Origin: Bacteroidaceae bacterium
Lineage (GTDB): Bacteria; Bacteroidota; Bacteroidia; Bacteroidales; Bacteroidaceae
Length of the DNA: 44,462 bases
Direction: 5' to 3'
Assembly: GCA_017628845.1 (NCBI GenBank)
Contig: JAGBYI010000002.1
Span: 1 to 44,462, forward strand
Shown: piece after piece, positions 2,583-22,898 of the stretch
Position numbering within the stretch: position 1 is the stretch's first letter
Layout: each line of letters begins with the position of its first letter
The notes under the pieces: model-generated
Database searches by the model: none
Seen by the model: the letters and a program-made list of their open reading frames with translations, nothing else
What the model was told of the DNA's origin: nothing
Made by a program: the position numbers and the translations under genes

Positions 2583-3743
2583 CTATAGATTTAGCTGATT
2601 GTCTAATATAATGTCCTCTGTGGGCACCTTGTCCCACGAGAAGAGGGGGATGAGTTCTTGTGGAGTGATGGGGGCAGGGGTGTCGGTCAGTCCGGCAAGG
2701 TGTGCCTGCAGACCTATGATTTCGTTGGCCTGGGTGCCTTTGTCTCGCAGATAGCCCAGGTCCATGCTCTTGTCGCGCTTGCAGAGGCGCTGGCCCTCGG
2801 CGTTGCAGAGGAGGGGGTGGTGTAAGAAGTTAACGGTGAGGGGTGAGTGCTGAGCGGTTAATCCACCCCCTCCGCTTCGCTCGTCCCCCTGCAGGGGGAC
2901 AGTCTGAGGGGTGAGCGAGGTGGCTGTAGGGACGCTGCGTGCAGCGTCCGTAATAGTTTTCCGTTTTTCGTTTCCTATTTCCTGTTCTCCAAACAGGAGT
3001 TCTCTAAGGTGTATCTGTTGGGGGGAGGACAGGAGCAGGTCGCGGCCACGCACTATTTCCGTAACGCCCATCAGGGCATCGTCCACAACAACTGCCAGTT
3101 GGTATGCCCAGGCACCGTCTTTTCTCCTTATTATATAGTCGCCGCAATGCTCTGCCAGGTTGATGTCGTGCCTGCCATAGTGCCCGTCGGTAAAGGGGAT
3201 GATGCAGTCGGGAACGATGAGGCGGGTGGTGGCGGGTGGAGCGGTGAGCGGTGAGCGGTGAGTGGTTAATCCACCCCCTCCGCTTCGCTCGTCCCCCTGT
3301 CTCAGGGGGACAGTCTGAGGGGTGAGCGAGGTGGCTGTAGGGACGCTGCACGCAGCGTCCGTGTATTTAGGCCGGCATGTCCCCTTGTACACCACTCTGC
3401 CGTCGGTTTCGTGTGGGGCTTGGGTTGCCATTATGTCGGCACGGGTGCAATAGCAGGGGTAGGTGAGGCCTATTTCCTGCAGACGGCGCAGGTATTCCTC
3501 GTAGATGTGCCCACGCTGGCTTTGCCAAACGGGTTCACCATCCCAGGGAAGGCCCAGCCACTGCAGGTCGTCCATCAGTTGAAGGGCATACTCCCTGCGG
3601 CTTCGCTGAGGGTCAAGGTCCTCTATGCGCAGAACCCACTCGCCACCCTTGCTCTTGGCGGAAAGCCAGGAGAGGAGGGCGCAGAAAACGTTGCCCAGAT
3701 GCATGCGCCCGGTAGGGGAGGGCGCAAATCTGCCTCGTGTCAT
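2583..3743 (-). CDS. gluQ: Glutamyl-Q tRNA(Asp) synthetase-like protein with two in-frame repeat insertions
   Basis: This is a truncated-type glutamyl-tRNA synthetase paralogue lacking the anticodon domain; the family attaches glutamate to queuosine in tRNA(Asp). Visible motifs are RFAPSPTG with the HIGH equivalent HLGN (15-18), a zinc site CYC...YKGTC (C97, C99, Y119, C123) and a KMSKS equivalent KRDKS (322-326). I start at 3743 because the family begins just before RFAPSPTG; the open frame continues upstream into what looks like promoter sequence. At 386 residues it is far longer than the usual 300 or so. The excess is two related inserts, about 129-173 (after the zinc site) and 266-305 (before HHPLL). 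Both begin DAA(C/R)SVPTATSLTPQTVPL and are encoded by the REP/hairpin repeats. Without them the length is about 300, so the enzyme may still fold. Confidence 0.85.
   Translation of the reverse strand: MTRGRFAPSPTGRMHLGNVFCALLSWLSAKSKGGEWVLRIEDLDPQRSRREYALQLMDDLQWLGLPWDGEPVWQSQRGHIYEEYLRRLQEIGLTYPCYCTRADIMATQAPHETDGRVVYKGTCRPKYTDAACSVPTATSLTPQTVPLRQGDERSGGGGLTTHRSPLTAPPATTRLIVPDCIIPFTDGHYGRHDINLAEHCGDYIIRRKDGAWAYQLAVVVDDALMGVTEIVRGRDLLLSSPQQIHLRELLFGEQEIGNEKRKTITDAARSVPTATSLTPQTVPLQGDERSGGGGLTAQHSPLTVNFLHHPLLCNAEGQRLCKRDKSMDLGYLRDKGTQANEIIGLQAHLAGLTDTPAPITPQELIPLFSWDKVPTEDIILDNQLNL
2829..2950. repeat. Composite repeat insertion (heptads + hairpin element + REP) inside gluQ, copy 1
   Basis: On the plus strand the order is GGTGAGC-like heptads (about 2832-2859), a hairpin element (2863-2923) with outer arms CCACC/GGTGG and central palindrome CCCCCTGCAGGGGG, and a REP (2926-2950: GTAG, the 20-base palindrome with GT loop, G). 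It encodes residues 266-305 of GluQ without a stop or frameshift. Confidence 0.85.
3225..3361. repeat. Composite repeat insertion (heptads + hairpin element + REP) inside gluQ, copy 2
   Basis: Same order and orientation as copy 1: GCGGTGA heptads (about 3238-3266), hairpin element (3271-3334, centre CCCCCTGTCTCAGGGGG) and REP (3337-3361, loop AC instead of GT). It encodes residues 129-173 of GluQ in the same relative frame as copy 1. Small differences between the copies (CTGCAGG versus CTGTCTCAGG, AC versus GT) show that they are not a very recent duplication. Confidence 0.85.
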
Positions 3744-3829
3744 GCCACAAAGGTAAGGCTTTTTTCTCAAATACATACAATATGCACATTTAGGAGTGCC
3801 AAACCAATGGCGAATTGGATTATAATGTG

Positions 3830-3837
3830 TACTTTTG
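3830..3837 (+). promoter_or_regulatory. Possible -7 box (TACTTTTG) for the M16 protease gene
   Basis: TACTTTTG fits TAnnTTTG and lies 44 bases before the ATG at 3882. No clear -33 box is seen at 19-21 bases upstream. Confidence 0.4.
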
Positions 3838-3881
3838 GTGCGCAAAATGATACATCAACATAAAACAAGCGAACACAAAGT

Positions 3882-10186: not shown

Positions 10187-13100
10187 ATGAAAAGAATCCT
10201 AATCTTACTGAGTGTGATACTGGCCACCGCCAGTGTCTATGCCCAGAACTTCCGCAAGGGTGCCCTTTATCAGGTAGACGGCATCCCCACGGAGTACAAG
10301 GGTCAGTTGTTCATCATGGATGAATTGTCAGGTTCATGGCGATTCATCGATCCCTTCAAGCAGCGTGCTTTGCGCGTGGGCGACAAGGGCATGGAGTATG
10401 GCGAGGTGAACGGTAGTGACGAGTTGCAGAAATGGACTTTGAAGGAGATTGCTCCAGGCAAGTACAGTGCCGTGCCCACCAACCAGACTTCCTTCCAGGC
10501 ACTGAAGAAGGGCGTTACCATCACCGAGGCCGATGCCTTCGGCAGCGATGACAACTGTACCTATCGTTTCCGTAGCGTCCAGGACCCTGCAATGGTTTTG
10601 GGCAATGGTGACGACGGAGGCAACAATGCACGCATTCGTGCCGAGAAAATGGATACCGTGAACCGTGGCCAGTACTGGAGTATCAAGACCCTCTCGCTGG
10701 GCCGTCACCTCATCGGTGGTGCTTTCTACGACAACCATTTTGATGATGGCGGCAACAACCAGAGCATCACATGGCTGCTTCAGTGGACAGCAAACCCAGC
10801 CAACCCTGGCAATGCACTTATGAGCCTGGAACCCGTAAAGGGACAGAAGGGCGTGTACCGCGTTGTTTCTGCCAACAAGAAGAAGATGTTCCGCATTGAA
10901 GGCAACCAGATGAAGATTGCCGACATCGACGAGGCCGACAAGGCTTCATGGTTCACCATTGAGCAGGTGGAGAAGCCCAAACTGTCTTCTCCCATATGGG
11001 AAGATGAAACCGTCTTCGAGATAAACAAGCTCCCCGGTGTGGCAACCTATATGCCCTATGCCAGCGAGGCGGAGATGAAGGCCGACAAGGCTTATTATGC
11101 AACCCCCTGGACAGAGCCTAAGAGCACTCTCTACAAGACTCTGGACGGCACATGGAACTTCTGGTTTACCGAAGTACCCGAGAAGGGTAAGGTGGCTGGA
11201 GATGTGGAAGTGATGGATGTGCCTGCCTTCGAGGCAGCCCAGTCTGCCGCTAACGGCAACGTCACACGCAAGCCCGATGCCATCCCCGTTCCTTCTTGCT
11301 GGGAGATGCAGGGCTACGACCGCCCCATCTATTGCAATGTGGAGTATCCTCACGGCAACACTCCTCCCTTCATCAAGGCTCGCCCCGGTTACAACGACGG
11401 TGGCAAGAACTATGCCATCAATCCCGTGGGTACATATCACCGTAGCTTCGACCTGCCCCAGGGTTGGGACAAGCAGCGCACCATCATACACTTCGGCGGT
11501 ATCTACTCTTGCGCACAGGTTTGGCTCAACGGCAAGTACGTGGGTTATACCCAGGGTTCCAACAATGTGGCAGAGTTCGACTTGACTCACCTTTTGCGTA
11601 CAGGCAAGAACGACCTCGTGGTACAGGTTCACCGCTGGTGCGACGGTTCATACCTGGAGTGCCAGGACATGTTCCGCATGTCTGGTATCTTCCGTAGCGT
11701 ATATATATATAATGTACCCAAGAAGAGCATCCGCAACCATGTGGTGCAGACCAATATCAGCGGTAAGGACGGTATTGTGAATGTAAGCGTTGACGCCGAT
11801 GTGGCTTCCGTTGCCAAGCTGTACACCCCCGAGGGTCAGCTTGTGGCAGAGCAGGCATTCAAGGGTGGCAAGGCCAAGTTCCTGGTTCCCAATGCCAGCT
11901 TCTGGACAGCCGAGACTCCTGCTCTCTACACCTTGGACATCGTGCAGAAGGACCAGAGCGGCAAGGATGTGATGGCATTCTCCACCAAGGTTGGTATCCG
12001 CGAGGTGAAGATCGTCGGTTCTCTGCTTTATGTCAACGGCAAGCGTGTCATCCTGAAGGGTGTAAATCGCCACGACACTAACCCCGTAACAGGTCGTACT
12101 GTTACTACCGACAACATGCTGGAAGACGTTCTGTTGATGAAGCGCAACAATATCAATACCATTCGTACCAGCCACTATCCCAACGATGCACGCATGTATG
12201 CTATGTTCGACCACTATGGTTTGTATTGCTGCGATGAGGCCGACCTCGAGGACCATGCCAACCAGTCAATCTCGTACATGAAGTCATGGATTCCTTCCTT
12301 TGTGGACCGTATCGACCGTATGGTGAGCCGCGACATCAACCATGCCAGCGTAATCATGTGGTCTTTGGGTAACGAGGCAGGTGCCGGTACCAACTTCAAG
12401 GATTGCTACGAGGCTGCCCACAAGATGGACCCCACTCGTCCTGTGCACTACGAGGGAACGCGTATCGACCGTGACTTCGGTGGTAGCGCCTACTCCGACT
12501 TCTACTCCAAGATGTACCCCTCTATGGACTGGATGGCAAAGAATACCAGTAATATGGACAAGCCCATGTTCCTCTGCGAATATGCTCATGCTATGGGTAA
12601 TGCCATCGGTAACCTGCCCGAGTATATGCAGAGTATGGAGGAGAGCAACGCCACCATCGGTGGTTGCATCTGGGACTGGGTGGATCAGGCTATCTACGAA
12701 CCTCTGGAACTGAAGAAGGGTGTTCGTCGTCTGCACACCGGTTATGACTATCCCGGTCCTCACCAGGGCAACTTCTGCTCTAATGGCGTAGTAACTGCCG
12801 AGCGCCGCCAGACAGCCAAGTTGGCAGAGGTGAAGTTTGCTCATCAGTTCATCAAGTTCCAGTATGCCAAGGGTACTCTCACCCTGCGCAATGCCTACGA
12901 CTTCCGTTCGCTCAAGGATATGAAGGTGGAGGCTAAGATCATGGTAGACGGCAAGGTGAAGAAGACTGTAACCGCCATGCTCGGCGATGTGAAGCCCGGT
13001 GAGACAACCACTATCGATATTCCCGTTTCCAAGTATGTCAAGAATACTGTTAAGAAGACCAAGACGGTTATTGTAAATGGAAAGACGGTATACAGCAGCA

Positions 13101-13900
13101 GTAAGTCATCAGGCCAGCATGTTGTACTCAATGTGGTTGTCATCGATACCAAGGCATCGCTGTCTACTCCTGCCAACCACATCGTTGCACACTATGGTGT
13201 GGATATTGCGAAGGGTGCTGTCCTGCCTGTCCTTGCCAAGGGCGAGAAGACCGAGCATCCCCAGTTCGCCTTCCAGAACCACCGTTGGATCGAGAACGAC
13301 CGCTTCGGCGACACTAATAGCGAGAACAAGGCAGATTGCGATATTACCTACGACTACCTGAAGGATGGTAGCATAGACATGATAGTGAAGGTTACTCCCA
13401 AGGATGGTAACCTGCGTCGTGTGGGTGTGGCTGCAGAGCTCGATACTGCTTTCTGCAATGTCAACTACTATGGTTATGGTCCCTACGAGAACTATCCCGA
13501 CCGTATGGCTGGCGTGCTCGTGGGTAACTACAGCGGCAAGGCTCTGCCTTTCAATGCCGACGGCACTCTGCCCGAGGGTACTTTGATGGAACCCTACATG
13601 AAGCCTCAGACCACCGGCGACCGTCTGGTGTACAACGTAACTCTTACCGATGCCAAGGGGCATGGTTGGCAGATAGAGTGCCCCGAGGGTATCTACTTCA
13701 GTGCCAACCGCTACACCGATGCTGACCTGATGAATGCCCAGCATACATGGGACATCAAGGCACGTCCCTACATCTGGTTGCAGTTGGGTATGGACATCCG
13801 TGGTCTCGGCAATGCTTCCTGTGGCCCTGGCCCCATGCAGAAGTACGTCATCGACGGCAAGCAGACCTACGAGTTCCGCGTACGAATGAAGAAGATTTGA
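10187..13900 (+). CDS. Secreted GH2 beta-galactosidase with N-terminal extension
   Basis: A 1237-residue glycoside hydrolase family 2 enzyme with a Sec signal (cleavage likely after ASVYA). GH2 proper starts near 280 (IWEDETVFEINKLPG, then KTLDGTWNFWF). The acid/base is E730 in WSLGNEAGAG and the nucleophile E798 in FLCEYAHAMGN, both intact; CDWVDQ-like GGCIWDWVDQ and the C-terminal beta-sandwich (YYGYGPYENYPDR) are also typical of LacZ-type enzymes. Residues about 22-275 are an extra domain with repeated WSI/FRI motifs that may be a beta-trefoil carbohydrate-binding module; this is inference. It would release terminal beta-galactose from glycans in the periplasm or outside. Together with the GH92/GH125/GH110 genes nearby it suggests host glycoprotein trimming. 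Confidence 0.92.
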   Translation: MKRILILLSVILATASVYAQNFRKGALYQVDGIPTEYKGQLFIMDELSGSWRFIDPFKQRALRVGDKGMEYGEVNGSDELQKWTLKEIAPGKYSAVPTNQTSFQALKKGVTITEADAFGSDDNCTYRFRSVQDPAMVLGNGDDGGNNARIRAEKMDTVNRGQYWSIKTLSLGRHLIGGAFYDNHFDDGGNNQSITWLLQWTANPANPGNALMSLEPVKGQKGVYRVVSANKKKMFRIEGNQMKIADIDEADKASWFTIEQVEKPKLSSPIWEDETVFEINKLPGVATYMPYASEAEMKADKAYYATPWTEPKSTLYKTLDGTWNFWFTEVPEKGKVAGDVEVMDVPAFEAAQSAANGNVTRKPDAIPVPSCWEMQGYDRPIYCNVEYPHGNTPPFIKARPGYNDGGKNYAINPVGTYHRSFDLPQGWDKQRTIIHFGGIYSCAQVWLNGKYVGYTQGSNNVAEFDLTHLLRTGKNDLVVQVHRWCDGSYLECQDMFRMSGIFRSVYIYNVPKKSIRNHVVQTNISGKDGIVNVSVDADVASVAKLYTPEGQLVAEQAFKGGKAKFLVPNASFWTAETPALYTLDIVQKDQSGKDVMAFSTKVGIREVKIVGSLLYVNGKRVILKGVNRHDTNPVTGRTVTTDNMLEDVLLMKRNNINTIRTSHYPNDARMYAMFDHYGLYCCDEADLEDHANQSISYMKSWIPSFVDRIDRMVSRDINHASVIMWSLGNEAGAGTNFKDCYEAAHKMDPTRPVHYEGTRIDRDFGGSAYSDFYSKMYPSMDWMAKNTSNMDKPMFLCEYAHAMGNAIGNLPEYMQSMEESNATIGGCIWDWVDQAIYEPLELKKGVRRLHTGYDYPGPHQGNFCSNGVVTAERRQTAKLAEVKFAHQFIKFQYAKGTLTLRNAYDFRSLKDMKVEAKIMVDGKVKKTVTAMLGDVKPGETTTIDIPVSKYVKNTVKKTKTVIVNGKTVYSSSKSSGQHVVLNVVVIDTKASLSTPANHIVAHYGVDIAKGAVLPVLAKGEKTEHPQFAFQNHRWIENDRFGDTNSENKADCDITYDYLKDGSIDMIVKVTPKDGNLRRVGVAAELDTAFCNVNYYGYGPYENYPDRMAGVLVGNYSGKALPFNADGTLPEGTLMEPYMKPQTTGDRLVYNVTLTDAKGHGWQIECPEGIYFSANRYTDADLMNAQHTWDIKARPYIWLQLGMDIRGLGNASCGPGPMQKYVIDGKQTYEFRVRMKKI

Positions 13901-13951: not shown

Positions 13952-14142
13952 GTAGGGACGCTGCGTGCAGCGTCCGCCAAGAAACCAAACAGAAGTTATG
14001 TCATCCTCTCGGTAGGGACGCTGCGTGCAGCGTCCGTATCATGCGACTCCACATTGTTTTGTCGGACGCTGCACGCAGCGTCCCTACTGGTGGATGGTGG
14101 TATTTGTTGTTCTGCTGATGTCTCGGATGCTGCCAGCGTCCG
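13952..14142. repeat. REP cluster 1 (forward, forward, reverse, degenerate reverse), 3' side of the RAYT gene
   Basis: Four REPs: 13952-13976 forward, 14012-14036 forward, 14063-14087 reverse, 14124-14142 reverse and degenerate (GGATGCTGCCAGCGTCC). Forward copies read GTAG, then GGACGCTGCGTGCAGCGTCC, then G. The degenerate one is 17 bases from the RAYT stop codon. The part from 14012 to 14161 is duplicated at 14798-14948. Confidence 0.95.
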
Positions 14143-14159
14143 AAACATGCAGAGTGTAA

Positions 14160-14708
14160 TTATTGTTCCTCCATATCATAGAAGCAATCCAATACCCAAT
14201 TAGCAACATTATACTCAATGTATAGAGAAATGTTATTTCCATCAACCACTCCTCTTATTGCATGGTCATGGTAACGTGGTTGCCATGCGAAGTCCGGGTT
14301 AATAGAACGGGCATATCTTGTAACAGCAGATTTCAGAGAACCGATATAGGTGGAAAGGGCCGTACGTGCAGAACCTTTTCCACATCCAGACATTCGCTCC
14401 TCTCTCGTAGGGACGCTGCGTGCAGCGTCCGAAAGGATAGGCAAGGATGGACTAATGTCAATGATAGCATGGAAGTGGTTAGGCATTACTACATATTGTA
14501 AAACCTTTACGTTAGCATGATGGGAAACGACGTTCTCCAATTCATTGAGCAAGAATGTACCTATTGGGGAATATTTCATTACGTCGCCCTCAATTTCCCC
14601 AAAGAAATGTCTATGTCCTTGAGTGCAGACGGTAATGAAGTATCTTCCGTCATTGTATTCTAACCACCAGGCACGAGGTGATTTCCTTTTGGGCAATTCG
14701 CTCTTCAT
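14160..14708 (-). CDS. REP-associated tyrosine transposase (RAYT), Y1/IS200-like, with a REP inside its own gene
   Basis: A 182-residue Y1 HUH-family transposase. The metal-binding HUH motif is HFH (78-80) in YVVMPNHFHAII, and the catalytic tyrosine is probably Y163 (or Y166) in ISLYIEYNVANW after the family block YHDHAIRG. The family acts as single-strand endonuclease on REP hairpins with a GTAG foot. It is flanked on each side by four REP copies and lacks a partner tnpB or IS ends, as expected of RAYTs. Residues 93-101 (SDAARSVPT) are encoded by a full REP (14407-14431) in a variable loop between the HUH motif and the tyrosine helix, without frame disruption. Both active-site motifs are intact, so activity is plausible. 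Confidence 0.9.
   Translation of the reverse strand: MKSELPKRKSPRAWWLEYNDGRYFITVCTQGHRHFFGEIEGDVMKYSPIGTFLLNELENVVSHHANVKVLQYVVMPNHFHAIIDISPSLPILSDAARSVPTREERMSGCGKGSARTALSTYIGSLKSAVTRYARSINPDFAWQPRYHDHAIRGVVDGNNISLYIEYNVANWVLDCFYDMEEQ
14407..14431. repeat. REP embedded in frame in the RAYT coding sequence
   Basis: A perfect 25-base forward REP (GTAG, palindrome with GT loop, G). Read on the gene's strand it gives S-DAARSVPT, the same peptide as the REPs in gluQ. Confidence 0.95.
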
Positions 14709-14754
14709 CGGTTTTCCAAGTAAAGATTATTTTATTAAACAAGGTGTCTTCCAA

Positions 14755-14933
14755 GTAGGGACGCGTGTCCGAAATGATTAATTGTATCTCTTTTGCCGTA
14801 GGGACGCTGCGTGCAGCGTCCGTATCATACGGTTTCCTGTTGTTTTGTCGGACGCTGCACGCAGCGTCCCTACGATTGGATGGGTTACAAACTGTTCTGC
14901 TGATGTCTCGGACGCTGCACGCAGCGTCCCTAC
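14755..14933. repeat. REP cluster 2 (degenerate forward, forward, reverse, reverse), 5' side of the RAYT gene
   Basis: Copies: 14755-14771 forward with an internal loss (GTAGGGACGCGTGTCCG), 14798-14822 forward, 14849-14873 reverse, 14909-14933 reverse. Again the degenerate copy is the one nearest the RAYT gene. The stretch 14798-14948 is the direct-repeat partner of 14012-14161; the gaps between REPs also match (26 bases, then 36 versus 35). Confidence 0.95.
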
Positions 14934-14959
14934 ATGCAGAGTGTAATTGCCATTCCTTT

Positions 14960-15730
14960 TTACTTTATCCCCCTTGCCTTGAATATCATTTCCTTGGCAT
15001 TGTTGATTTGCTGGAACTTTTCTTCTGCTGCTTTTTTGACGTCTTCGCCAAGGGTTGCCACCTTGTCGGGGTGATGTTTGAGCGCTAACTTGCGGTAGGC
15101 TTTCTTTACTTCTTCGTCAGAGGCAGAGGGATCGATTTCAAGAACCTTGTAGCCCTGTTCCAATGTCTTGCCACCCAGATTCAGCATTGACTCCACCTCT
15201 TCGGCAGAGAGTCCCATGGCTATGGCCACCTCTTTCAAGGCCTCAATCTCAGCCTGGCACACGTTGCCATCGCTCTGTGCTATCTTGGCAAGGAAACTGA
15301 GCAGCTGAAGGCGTTGCTCATAACTCATGTTCTGCTTTATCTGCACACCGCACTCGTAGATGGCGTTCTTGAATGCCGAAGGATTCTTGGCATCCATCTG
15401 CTTGCGTTGCTCAAAAAGGTTAAGCAGAATCTGATTGCCCTCGCTTACAGCCGCTTCTCCGAAATTTACACGAAGGAACTGGCGTACAAATTCCATTTCG
15501 CTGTGCATCACCTTGCCGTCGGCCTTGATGATGTACGATGCCATTACCAGCAGTGAGAACAGGAAACTGTTCCTTTGCCCATAAGTGGGGTCAGTATGTG
15601 TGTACTGCCCGTTGTCGGTGTAGGTATTGCCGCCTTCCAGCAGTTTGCCCAAGGCATAACCTGCCAAGGCACCTAAAGGCCCTGCCGCCATGAAACCGAC
15701 AATGCCACCAATCCATTTTCCAAATCCCAT
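14960..15730 (-). CDS. TerB/J-domain co-chaperone (DjlA-like)
   Basis: 256 residues from the start I prefer. The N-terminus [31 protein letters not shown] is a glycine-rich membrane-interacting segment, the middle (about 55-170) is a TerB-like helical domain ([23 protein letters not shown]... [19 protein letters not shown]), and the C-terminus is a J domain with the HPD motif ([18 protein letters not shown]). J domains stimulate Hsp70 (DnaK) ATPase, and this arrangement resembles DjlA, probably at the inner membrane. An in-frame ATG ten codons upstream exists, but a TAAGTTTG -7 box overlaps it, so 15730 is the likelier start. Its stop lies 12 bases from REP cluster 2. Confidence 0.88.
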
Positions 15731-15757
15731 AATATGTGTTCTTGTTTGATTTGGGTG

Positions 15758-15765
15758 CAAACTTA
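15758..15765 (-). promoter_or_regulatory. -7 box (TAAGTTTG) of the TerB/J-domain gene
   Basis: Minus-strand TAAGTTTG fits TAnnTTTG and lies 27 bases before the ATG at 15730. This position decides the start: the upstream in-frame ATG at 15760 would fall within the box. Confidence 0.55.
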
Positions 15766-15854: not shown

Positions 15855-15922
15855 GAGGACCGGGGTGAGACAACCCGAGGACCGAGGCGAGAGTACCGGG
15901 AACTCTCGCCTCGGTCCTCGGG
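15855..15922. repeat. 22-base repeat unit twice, then a 21-base perfect inverted repeat
   Basis: GAGGACCG starts at 15855 and 15877, 22 bases apart. The second unit forms the left arm (15874-15894) of a perfect 21-base inverted repeat whose right arm is 15902-15922, loop ACCGGGA. The hairpin is very stable and has no T run at its plus-strand end. It lies between the TerB/J promoter and the protease terminator. Confidence 0.8.
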
Positions 15923-20763: not shown

Positions 20764-21166
20764 AATGTGAAAGGTGAAAACGGAAAACTGTCCACCCTCT
20801 TTCTCCCCCTGCAGGGGGAGTCCCAAAGGGGAGGGGGTGGATTAGAACGGAAAGCGTAAAACTGAAATCGGAAAAGTATCCACCCCCTCCGTCGCTACGC
20901 TCCTCCCTTCGGGTCCAGCGTCGCACTGGGTAGTGCTCCCCTCAGAGGGCACAGAATGACATTCAGTCATTCTTCTAAAGACCCTCTTCGCCACCCTGTT
21001 TCAGGGGGACAGAGTAAACGGAAAACTTAACAGTAGGGACGTAGCGTGCTGAGTCCGAAACAAAGACACAACAGAATACCTCATAGCGGACGCTGCACGC
21101 AGCGTCCCTACAAATGTCCTCGGTTAAATACCTACTACCTAAACAAACAGCCTAAGTAATATCAAT
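20764..21166. repeat. Repeat-rich spacer between GH92 and GH125 genes
   Basis: No gene. It holds a hairpin element of the family found in gluQ (20792-20840: CCACCC, central CCCCCTGCAGGGGG, GGGTGG), a diverged and rearranged second one (from 20880, CCACCCCCTCCGTCGC), a palindrome GAATGAC-ATTCA-GTCATTC (20954-20972), a fragment with TTTCAGGGGGACAG near 21000, and an inverted REP pair at 21033-21111. No convincing promoter box for GH125 is visible. Confidence 0.75.
21033..21111. repeat. Inverted REP pair upstream of GH125
   Basis: Forward copy 21033-21057 is a degenerate variant (GTAG, GGACGTAGC, GT, GCTGAGTCC, G). Reverse copy 21087-21111 is canonical. The spacer is 29 bases. Confidence 0.9.
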
Positions 21167-22591: not shown

Positions 22592-22898
22592 GAACGGAAA
22601 TCTGCGAGTAGGCGAGAGCATAAACAAAGTTCACTTTGATTAGTGCCGAGCATGAGCAGGTTCAAGACGACGAAGTCGGATTAAAGGTGAAGTGTGAAAA
22701 CGATACACCCAACAGTAGGGACGCAGCGTGCTGCGTCCGGAATCAAGAGGAATGCCCTAAAGCGGACGCTGCACGCAGCGTCCCTACATCCAAAACTTAA
22801 ACCATATAATATCTCATCGTTAACCCCTCACCGCTCACCCCTCACCGCTCACTGCTCACTGCTCACCCCTTAACCCCTAAATTTAATTAACCAACTAT
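22592..22898. repeat. Spacer between GH125 and GH110 genes: REP pair and heptad minisatellite
   Basis: No gene. It contains an inverted REP pair (22715-22787) and six 7-base units CTCAC(C/T)(C/G) at 22827-22868 bordered by TTAACCCC on both sides. The same heptads in reverse occur beside the REPs inserted in gluQ. No clear promoter box seen. Confidence 0.8.
22715..22787. repeat. Inverted REP pair downstream of GH125, forward copy with compensated stem
   Basis: Forward copy 22715-22739 has arms GGACGCAGC/GCTGCGTCC: the inner stem bases differ from the canonical GGACGCTGC/GCAGCGTCC on both sides, so the palindrome stays perfect. Reverse copy 22763-22787 is canonical. Spacer 23 bases. Confidence 0.93.

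Follow-up and report, generated by a model that had tools for sequence, protein, structure and literature searches.

The closest described relatives of the locus analysed here are TnpA-REP genes (RAYTs) accompanied by their own REPs. In Quentin et al. 2018 (PMC6006769), TnpA-REP subclasses 2.4 and 2.6 are placed in Bacteroidetes. Subclass 2.4, marked there as Bertels group 4, is given as abundant in both Bacteroidetes and Cyanobacteria. Its genes have REPs on their flanks and, between the HUH and Y motifs, in-frame REPs as well; the in-gene region is modelled as a peripheral extension, where an insertion may affect the protein little. A previous sequence-only reading of the locus had supposed that such systems were little described in this phylum, a view that is contradicted by these subclasses and by the in-frame REPs of subclass 2.4 genes. 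For group 2 and group 3 enzymes, cutting at CT, the use of GTAG as a guide and a dependence on the loop have been reported (PMC8266576), and E. coli genomes with a RAYT hold more REPINs than those without one (PMC8049555). Nunvar et al. 2013 (PMC3686654) termed the change of REP class at syntenic RAYTs an ‘orthoswitch’ and also reported REPs that outlast their RAYT.

The window (the whole 44,462-nucleotide stretch of Bacteroidaceae DNA that was analysed) contains a locus that resembles subclass 2.4 in its Bacteroidetes host, its NHFH and WQ motifs, its flanking GTAG REPs, its in-frame REP between HUH and Y, and the double-foot REPs of its relatives. It differs from that subclass in its Tyr motif, which ends in NV or NI instead of NP both in the genus members and in many Bacteroidales rows of the alignment, and in the base of the REP stem, which in the window is G-C, G-C, A-T as against three G-C pairs. 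The window REP has neither the three-G-C stem base nor the double foot that marks subclass 2.4, a double foot being found in 23 of the 64 loci with an internal REP. The assignment of the window RAYT to this subclass is provisional.

The short, perfect palindromes of the Stenotrophomonas and Pseudomonas group 3 REPtrons (8 bp in S. maltophilia) and the class switching at their syntenic RAYTs are also similar to what is described below; those systems, however, belong to subclass 2.5, and no in-gene REP is reported in the parts of those papers drawn on here (PMC8266576; PMC3686654). As in the REPINs of PMC3116915, the repeated unit is an inverted REP pair with a spacer, although the spacers here are mostly about 18-28 nt and the mobility of the units is putative. 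REPs within coding sequences have been noted in several species among the GTAG-tagged REPs of PMC3733652, whereas the repeats named for Bacteroidetes in the relevant part of that paper carry CGTC, not GTAG. A RAYT-REP partnership with an in-gene REP is thus of an already described kind (Quentin et al. 2018), and what is added here is the match of the in-gene REP to its flanking family and its constraint at synonymous sites. A search at the level of titles and abstract openings, largely outside subscription papers and preprints, found no published test of either property.

Anatomy of the locus

The locus (13952-14933) is bordered by a GH2 beta-galactosidase-like gene (10187-13900, forward strand) and by a TerB/DnaJ-domain gene (ORF 14960-15760, reverse strand), and comprises one Y1 transposase gene and nine REP-like elements (Table 1). 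The sequence-only reading had eight REPs, two of them degenerate, surrounding the transposase. The two degenerate copies stand; the total is nine, seven of them intact, and one of these (14407-14431) lies inside the gene. An intact REP consists of GTAG and the palindrome GGACGCTGCGTGCAGCGTCC, with low ends at 13952, 14012, 14064, 14407, 14798, 14850 and 14910. In the window, GGACGCTGCGTGCAGCGTCC was matched 23 times with up to three mismatches, most of these matches being palindromes scored on both strands, against an expectation of 0.00 from 100 dinucleotide shuffles.

Direct repeats of ~145 nt lie on both sides of the RAYT, each composed of a REPIN and a third REP, of which the left one is degenerate. 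When folded as single-stranded DNA, a REP forms an 8-bp stem with CGTG at its tip (-9.2 kcal/mol), and a REP pair (REPIN) forms one long hairpin (about -35 kcal/mol). An inverted repeat at 15874-15922 (CCCGAGGACCGAGGCGAGAG / CTCTCGCCTCGGTCCTCGGG), perfect-looking by eye, is situated upstream of the TerB/DnaJ gene.

Table 1. Positions of the RAYT gene, its motifs and the REP elements in the window
Feature	Position	Strand	Remarks
REP in frame in gluQRS-like gene	2926..2949	+	same as RAYT-locus REP
REP in frame in gluQRS-like gene	3337..3360	+	GTAG foot, flipped centre (AC)
REP, outer left	13952..13976	+	
REP, left REPIN, first arm	14012..14036	+	
Left copy of direct-repeat block flanking RAYT	14012..14170	+	
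REP, left REPIN, second arm	14063..14087	-	
Degenerate REP	14125..14141	-	without foot, shortened centre
RAYT / TnpA-REP gene	14160..14708	-	182 aa, ATG start, without internal stop
Predicted catalytic tyrosine Y163	14220..14222	-	aligned to E. coli Y115; N167 to N119 (roles: PMC6006769, PMC8266576)
WQ, residues 142-143	14280..14285	-	aligned to E. coli TnpA-REP W94-Q95; then D148, H149, R152
In-frame REP within RAYT gene	14407..14431	+	antisense to gene; encodes DAARSVPT
NHFH (HUH) motif, residues 77-80	14469..14480	-	
Degenerate REP	14755..14770	+	foot kept, centre deleted
REP, right REPIN, first arm	14798..14822	+	
Right copy of direct-repeat block flanking RAYT	14798..14957	+	
REP, right REPIN, second arm	14849..14873	-	
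REP, outer right	14909..14933	-	
Dispersed REP copy	21088..21111	-	
Variant REP (GCAGCGTGCTGC centre)	22715..22738	+	paired with 22764..22787
Dispersed REP copy	22764..22787	-	

The predicted enzyme

The 182-aa protein matches Pfam Y1_Tnp (PF01797) at 28.5 bits (cut-off 23) and the NCBIfam family REP_Tyr_transpos (NF047646) at 48.3 bits (9e-13), which is below the cut-off of 80; the RAYTs of four relatives likewise fall under that cut-off (44.8-67.3 bits). A profile of the five genus RAYTs had a single match in the PDB at E <= 0.001, which was E. coli TnpA-REP (4er8; whole-sequence E 1e-4). In that alignment W94, Q95, H101, R104, Y115 and N119 of the E. coli enzyme have the identical counterparts W142, Q143, H149, R152, Y163 and N167, while E100 is replaced by D148 and P120 by V168. 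The residues for GTAG recognition (W, Q, E/D, H and R) are all present, as W142, Q143, D148, H149 and R152; this role, like those of the catalytic Tyr and the metal-site Asn, is taken from PMC6006769 and PMC8266576. The HUH-Y core and the GTAG foot are also shared with the E. coli REPtron. Apart from the two substitutions, the systems differ in that the window REP is a near-perfect short palindrome and that of E. coli is bulged and long.

The intact HFH and tyrosine motifs described from the sequence were confirmed, with NHFH at residues 77-80 and an Asn (N167) at Tyr+4 of Y163, as is a hallmark of RAYTs. The Tyr motif itself reads YIEYNV, not the hallmark Y---NP (YIxNNP). Its P position is occupied by V or I in all five genus members; among 35 rows of the alignment, most of those from Bacteroidales have V/I there and others have P. 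One RAYT copy was found in the draft genome. Judged by its motifs and profile matches, the predicted protein, a domesticated transposase, is a RAYT/TnpA-REP of the HUH/Y1 family.

The REP family in the genome

The genome of the window (G000; genomes and loci are cited below by G and L numbers) is a 2.67-Mb draft, 84.6% complete, of which the window forms contig 183. The exact 20-mer palindrome occurs in it 56 times and its reversed control not at all, and the GTAG-footed 24-mer occurs 52 times. The element is thus plentiful in the rest of the genome, where its absence would have counted against the sequence-only reading, and the RAYT is flanked by GTAG REPs of a genome-dispersed family. REPs are strongly intergenic and avoid long frames: in 21 stretches of G000, stop-to-stop frames of at least 150 codons contained 6 of 54 REPs, compared with 8551 of 10500 random points. 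Other dispersed repeats of ~50-250 nt, with dozens of matches per genome, were seen near REPs (L228:3600-7600, and many places in G000, G048 and G042), and the REP-rich G048 contig terminates among such repeats.

Two in-frame REPs (encoding DAACSVPT and DAARSVPT) are carried in two hypervariable loops of a gluQRS-like tRNA glutamyl-Q(34) synthetase gene (2583-3845, reverse strand; NF004314 at 263.5 bits, cut-off 256; TIGR03838 at 269.4 bits, below its cut-off of 276.7). In six relatives (G048, G026, G014, G042, G038 and G128) the gluQRS-like gene is without a REP and has shorter or unrelated inserts, which is a sign of REP gain in the G000 lineage. At 3337-3360 in the window, and at G000:C46:30406-30429, the GTAG foot is kept and the two bases at the centre are AC in place of GT, which is what an inversion of the hairpin centre would give.

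REP abundance and the presence of a RAYT

A RAYT of this clade (E below 1e-55) was found in five of the 139 genomes of the genus, and matches to GTAGGGACGC-N8-GCGTCC numbered 68 in G000, 7 in G013, 19 in G026, 19 in G043 and 185 in G128. Among the 134 non-carriers there were no matches in 121, one or two in ten, and 8-21 in three (G131, G042 and G048). At least five copies were therefore present in 5/5 carriers and 3/134 others (Fisher p 1.4e-7, overstated as the genomes are related). In the family set of 399 genomes, scored for the GTAGGGAC class only and with RAYT carriers taken at E <= 1e-20, the corresponding counts were 8/20 carriers and 3/379 others (p 1.3e-9, overstated for the same reason). 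The three non-carriers were G131, G268 and G312, with 12, 6 and 80 copies. Twelve of the 20 family carriers score 0-3, and their REPs may be of other classes that escape the GTAGGGAC pattern. Y1 matches at E 1.0e-15 to 1e-3 were seen in a further 64 genomes of the genus; most of them lie in longer frames, and all were excluded from the clade RAYTs. Two more distant Y1 genes of the genus, L036 (G082) and L038 (G085), with 28-30% identity, are flanked by GTAG hairpin families of their own (GTAGGGGCATAC... and GTAGGGAATTTG...).

The type of REP was also followed in 11 genomes. The G000-type 24-mer was counted 52 times in G000, 13 in G048, 11 in G026, 7 in G043, 4 in G042, 3 in G013, once each in G014, G038 and G040, and not in G128 or G312. 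The G026/G043-type 24-mer was counted 72 times in G048, 42 in G026, 4 in G000, 2 in G043, once each in G042 and G014, and not in the rest. In G000 and in G026, the more numerous of the two types is that of the resident RAYT. The two copies of the RAYT-type REP in the genome of G043 are both at the RAYT, and the presence of a RAYT therefore does not guarantee that its REP spreads.

REPs without a detected clade RAYT were found in G048 (72 G026-type and 13 G000-type), G312 (80 of the GTAGGGAC class), G042 (9) and G131 (8), all four of which are incomplete assemblies. A wider RAYT profile gave no matches in G048, G042, G312, G268, G281, G346, G038, G040 or G014, and in G131 it gave weak matches only (E 1.8e-14 and up, in frames of 354-461 codons). 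It looks as if G048 recently had a G026-type RAYT, or as if that RAYT sits in an assembly gap. The G048 REPs were rejected as proof of RAYT loss: at the site of the G026-type RAYT the contig ends 252 nt beyond the aligned flank, and the completeness of the assembly is 88%.

Within the genus, the number of REPs tracks the RAYT, with G048, G312 and G043 as exceptions. Nor is the element equally abundant in relatives without a RAYT of this clade, which would have counted against the sequence-only reading: 131 of the 134 genus non-carriers have 0-2 matches. The proposed pairing of GTAG-footed REPs with a RAYT is supported by this co-occurrence, the genome-wide palindrome count and its control, and the NF047646 and 4er8 matches.

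Sites with and without a RAYT

In G048, the same junction between the GH2 and DnaJ genes holds a single REPIN and no RAYT. This REPIN is 88% identical to the left block of the window (over 77 nt) and 84% to the right block (over 76 nt). In G042 and G040 a different gene, the translation of which looks like a glutaminase, occupies the junction, and there is no match to the intergenic sequence of the window. The G026 RAYT shares 58% protein identity with that of the window, yet the DnaJ gene of G026 is 86% identical in DNA. This RAYT is located at a different site, which in G000 lacks a RAYT and contains a REPIN whose arms are of the G000 type, and in G048 contains a REPIN with G026-type arms, soon after which the contig ends. 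In two places, therefore, a REPIN-only site faces a REPtron, reciprocally. Both loss through recombination between the flanking REPINs and gain beside a REPIN would account for this arrangement.

A REP within the RAYT gene

The in-frame REP at 14407-14431 lies between the HUH motif and the predicted catalytic Tyr of the RAYT gene, within the peptide SDAARSVPT. An internal REP was detected in 64 of 82 distinct RAYT loci (the best 80 of 494 named loci, plus five genus loci, minus three duplicates), a set that leans toward in-gene REPs because the named-locus query itself carried the REP peptide; the identity of these relatives with the query is as low as about 31-45%. The three duplicates repeat the RAYT genes of G013, G128 and G043, and their records are Bacteroidaceae MAGs from the cecum of dairy cattle and of water buffalo, together with one MAG of an uncultured Prevotellaceae. 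Most internal REPs lie between HUH and WQ, and L100 and L140 have an additional one near the start of the gene. The 64 comprise 15 that are antisense only, 6 that are sense only, 20 inverted pairs and 23 with a double foot. Autoregulation through a strand-specific RNA signal in the gene is disfavoured, since the orientation varies.

The internal REP usually belongs to the family of its own locus. It was identical to a flanking copy in 31 of the 52 loci that have both, where 2000 permutations gave a mean of 1.7 and a maximum of 6, and the mean identity of internal to flanking REPs was 0.945 within a locus and 0.62 between loci.

The codons of the REP peptide were examined in every V/I-P/S-T tripeptide between HUH and WQ, so that nothing was selected by nucleotide; this yielded 48 occurrences in 44 loci (five in L084). 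Val was GTC in 45/46 tripeptides and in 68/496 (13.7%) outside the interval in the same genes; the corresponding figures were 20/21 and 94/388 (24%) for Pro as CCT, and 26/27 and 61/320 (19%) for Ser as TCT, counts from related loci for which exact p-values carry no weight. The V and T are set by the search itself, whereas the synonymous letters are not. Across the 42 loci with Val, nine stem pairs are kept in 28, eight in 9, seven in 3, five in 1 and none in 1. The 31 unique sequences have 20 different inner arms and a mean of 8.19 of nine stem pairs, compared with 5.89 (maximum 6.58 in 2000 runs) after arms were exchanged between loci. The four middle residues of the peptide vary freely, giving 28 peptides in the 42 loci. 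The in-gene REP is thus constrained at synonymous sites while its peptide varies. By these codon and pairing counts, the stretch is conserved as DNA, through selection, copying between REPs, or both, and it is apparently maintained for its nucleotide sequence and not for the protein that it encodes.

No internal REP was detected in 18 of the 82 loci, some of which retain a damaged one (L073, L078 and L082). Eight of the 18 nonetheless have at least six flanking REPs, and the internal REP is therefore not obligatory. Two of the 18, L116 and L118, combine a short loop with seven and six flanking REPs, respectively; an in-gene REP is thus not required for flanking REPs to exist. Related RAYTs with in-gene GTAG REPs were seen at L123, L132 and L138, whose MAGs bear the labels Gracilibacteria, Thermus/Deinococcus group and Anaerolineae, and one in which no REP was detected in the gene at L136, from a MAG labelled Cloacimonadota; transfer or binning error may account for these four.

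Comparison of REP sites among relatives

A syntenic clade, with 7-18 kb of aligned DNA for each pair listed, is formed by L082, L083, L086, L087, L089, L091, L096, L097 and L098. Its REP positions upstream of the RAYT, within it and downstream carry GTGCCATGGCGC, GGTGTGCACACC or the GTTGCGTGCAAC/GTAGCGTGCTAC pair and mostly switch together, with mixed downstream types in L087 and L091. Dispersed sites were compared among G000, G026 and G048, which are about 78-97% identical on shared alignments of more than 1 kb. The 25 comparisons, some of which are the same site from both sides, used stretches chosen for containing REPs, so REP-free sites are under-sampled. One dispersed REPIN (L216/L168/L191) carries the G000 arms in G000 and those of G026 and G048 in these two genomes, with the flanks aligned and the 18-nt spacer identical at 11/18 positions by a manual count. 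A single stem pair differs on both sides at L170/L186, together with one centre base. Nine other site pairs have the same REP type in both genomes, some with a one-base defect, and at a few further sites the REP is missing in the other genome but the local sequence aligns poorly.

Vacant sites were sought by joining the flanks of 265 REP clusters from the named and genus loci. Of the 90 matches that spanned a junction, 25 being the same genome twice, ten had fewer than 8 inserted bases; six of these were still REP-like and four vacancy-like. The latter were the in-gene site of L136 against L129, L132 and L137 (73-78% identity), which have the REP, L136 having stops in the matched range, and one dispersed double-foot REP of L097 against L089 (69%). 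Vacant REP sites are therefore rare among the sites compared (4/90, three of them the same L136 site). A gapped BLAST search for REP indels, with the closest pairs excluded, returned five poor cases.

Interpretation and alternatives

These observations make it highly probable that the locus is a REPtron, i.e., a single-copy RAYT (a TnpA-REP of the HUH/Y1 family) and the cognate family of REPs. The enzyme would be expected to bind a single-stranded REP through the GTAG foot and the 8-9 bp hairpin with CGTG at its tip, and to cut near it via Tyr163; REP pairs (REPINs) would be spread by the RAYT, and REPs and enzyme would co-evolve. With one in-frame REP between the HUH and WQ/Y motifs, the gene would hold a copy of its own substrate. 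From the intact gene and the near-identical REP copies we infer a functioning REPtron, and cleavage, mobility in vivo and a selection that keeps the in-gene REP beyond copying between REPs likewise enter the proposal as inferences.

Could the repeats be host elements, such as terminator or RNA-stability hairpins, with a RAYT among them by chance? Their strongly intergenic placement and the very stable REPIN fold would suit such a role. Seven intact copies within 1 kb at the sole RAYT found, and an abundance that tracks the RAYT and, in G000 and G026, also its type, make it very improbable indeed. It is also improbable, if a little less so, that the locus is an active insertion sequence of the IS200/IS605 type, able to move its own gene. 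The protein does belong to the Y1 transposase family, ~145-nt direct-repeat blocks flank the gene, and the RAYTs of G000 and G026 are at different sites, each of which is a gene-free REPIN in another genome. Such vacant sites are, however, explained by differential loss through recombination between flanking REPINs. Moreover, the draft yielded one transposase copy, where an element of this type would have several near-identical ones per genome, its neighbours are the GH2 and TerB/DnaJ genes, and Tyr+4 is Asn, not Gln.

The in-gene REP is harder to interpret. The proposition that it is an old insertion, carried passively in a loop that tolerates it and without a function of its own, with RAYT-driven or recombinational copying homogenising all REPs, seems to us evenly poised between right and wrong. 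It is in keeping with the peripheral extension of maybe little impact modelled by Quentin et al. (PMC6006769), the joint change of arms at upstream, internal and downstream sites of the syntenic clade, the in-frame REPs of the gluQRS-like gene, the RAYTs that have no internal REP, and the vacant site of L136 where L129, L132 and L137 have one. Presence in 64/82 loci down to about 31-45% identity would, however, be a long persistence for a neutral insert, and foot and stem are kept at synonymous sites. That constraint, with a free peptide, and the way in which the internal copy follows the REP family of its locus could instead reflect a selected control element: a site through which the RAYT binds the gene or the transcript that encodes it, or else a master copy that is protected. 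This is a credible suggestion that we nevertheless consider doubtful on balance: the same data are explained by concerted copying, and the varying orientation (43 of the 64 having both) makes a strand-specific RNA signal unlikely. More tentative still, and rather unlikely as a whole, is the proposal that RAYT genes of this subclass are built around their own substrate. The in-frame REP would be under nucleotide, not peptide, selection and be rewritten together with the REP family of the genome. Arms would be exchanged in place at fixed sites (in the gene, beside it and in dispersed REPINs, with spacer and flanks kept), and enzyme specificity and repeat family would be locked in one gene.

The biochemistry behind the spread of REPs and the benefit of a RAYT comes, in the papers considered, from proteobacterial enzymes. 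A Bacteroidales RAYT whose close relatives have reciprocal RAYT and REPIN-only sites, and whose gene contains a stretch conserved as DNA while its peptide drifts, offers a natural experiment on RAYT-REP co-evolution.
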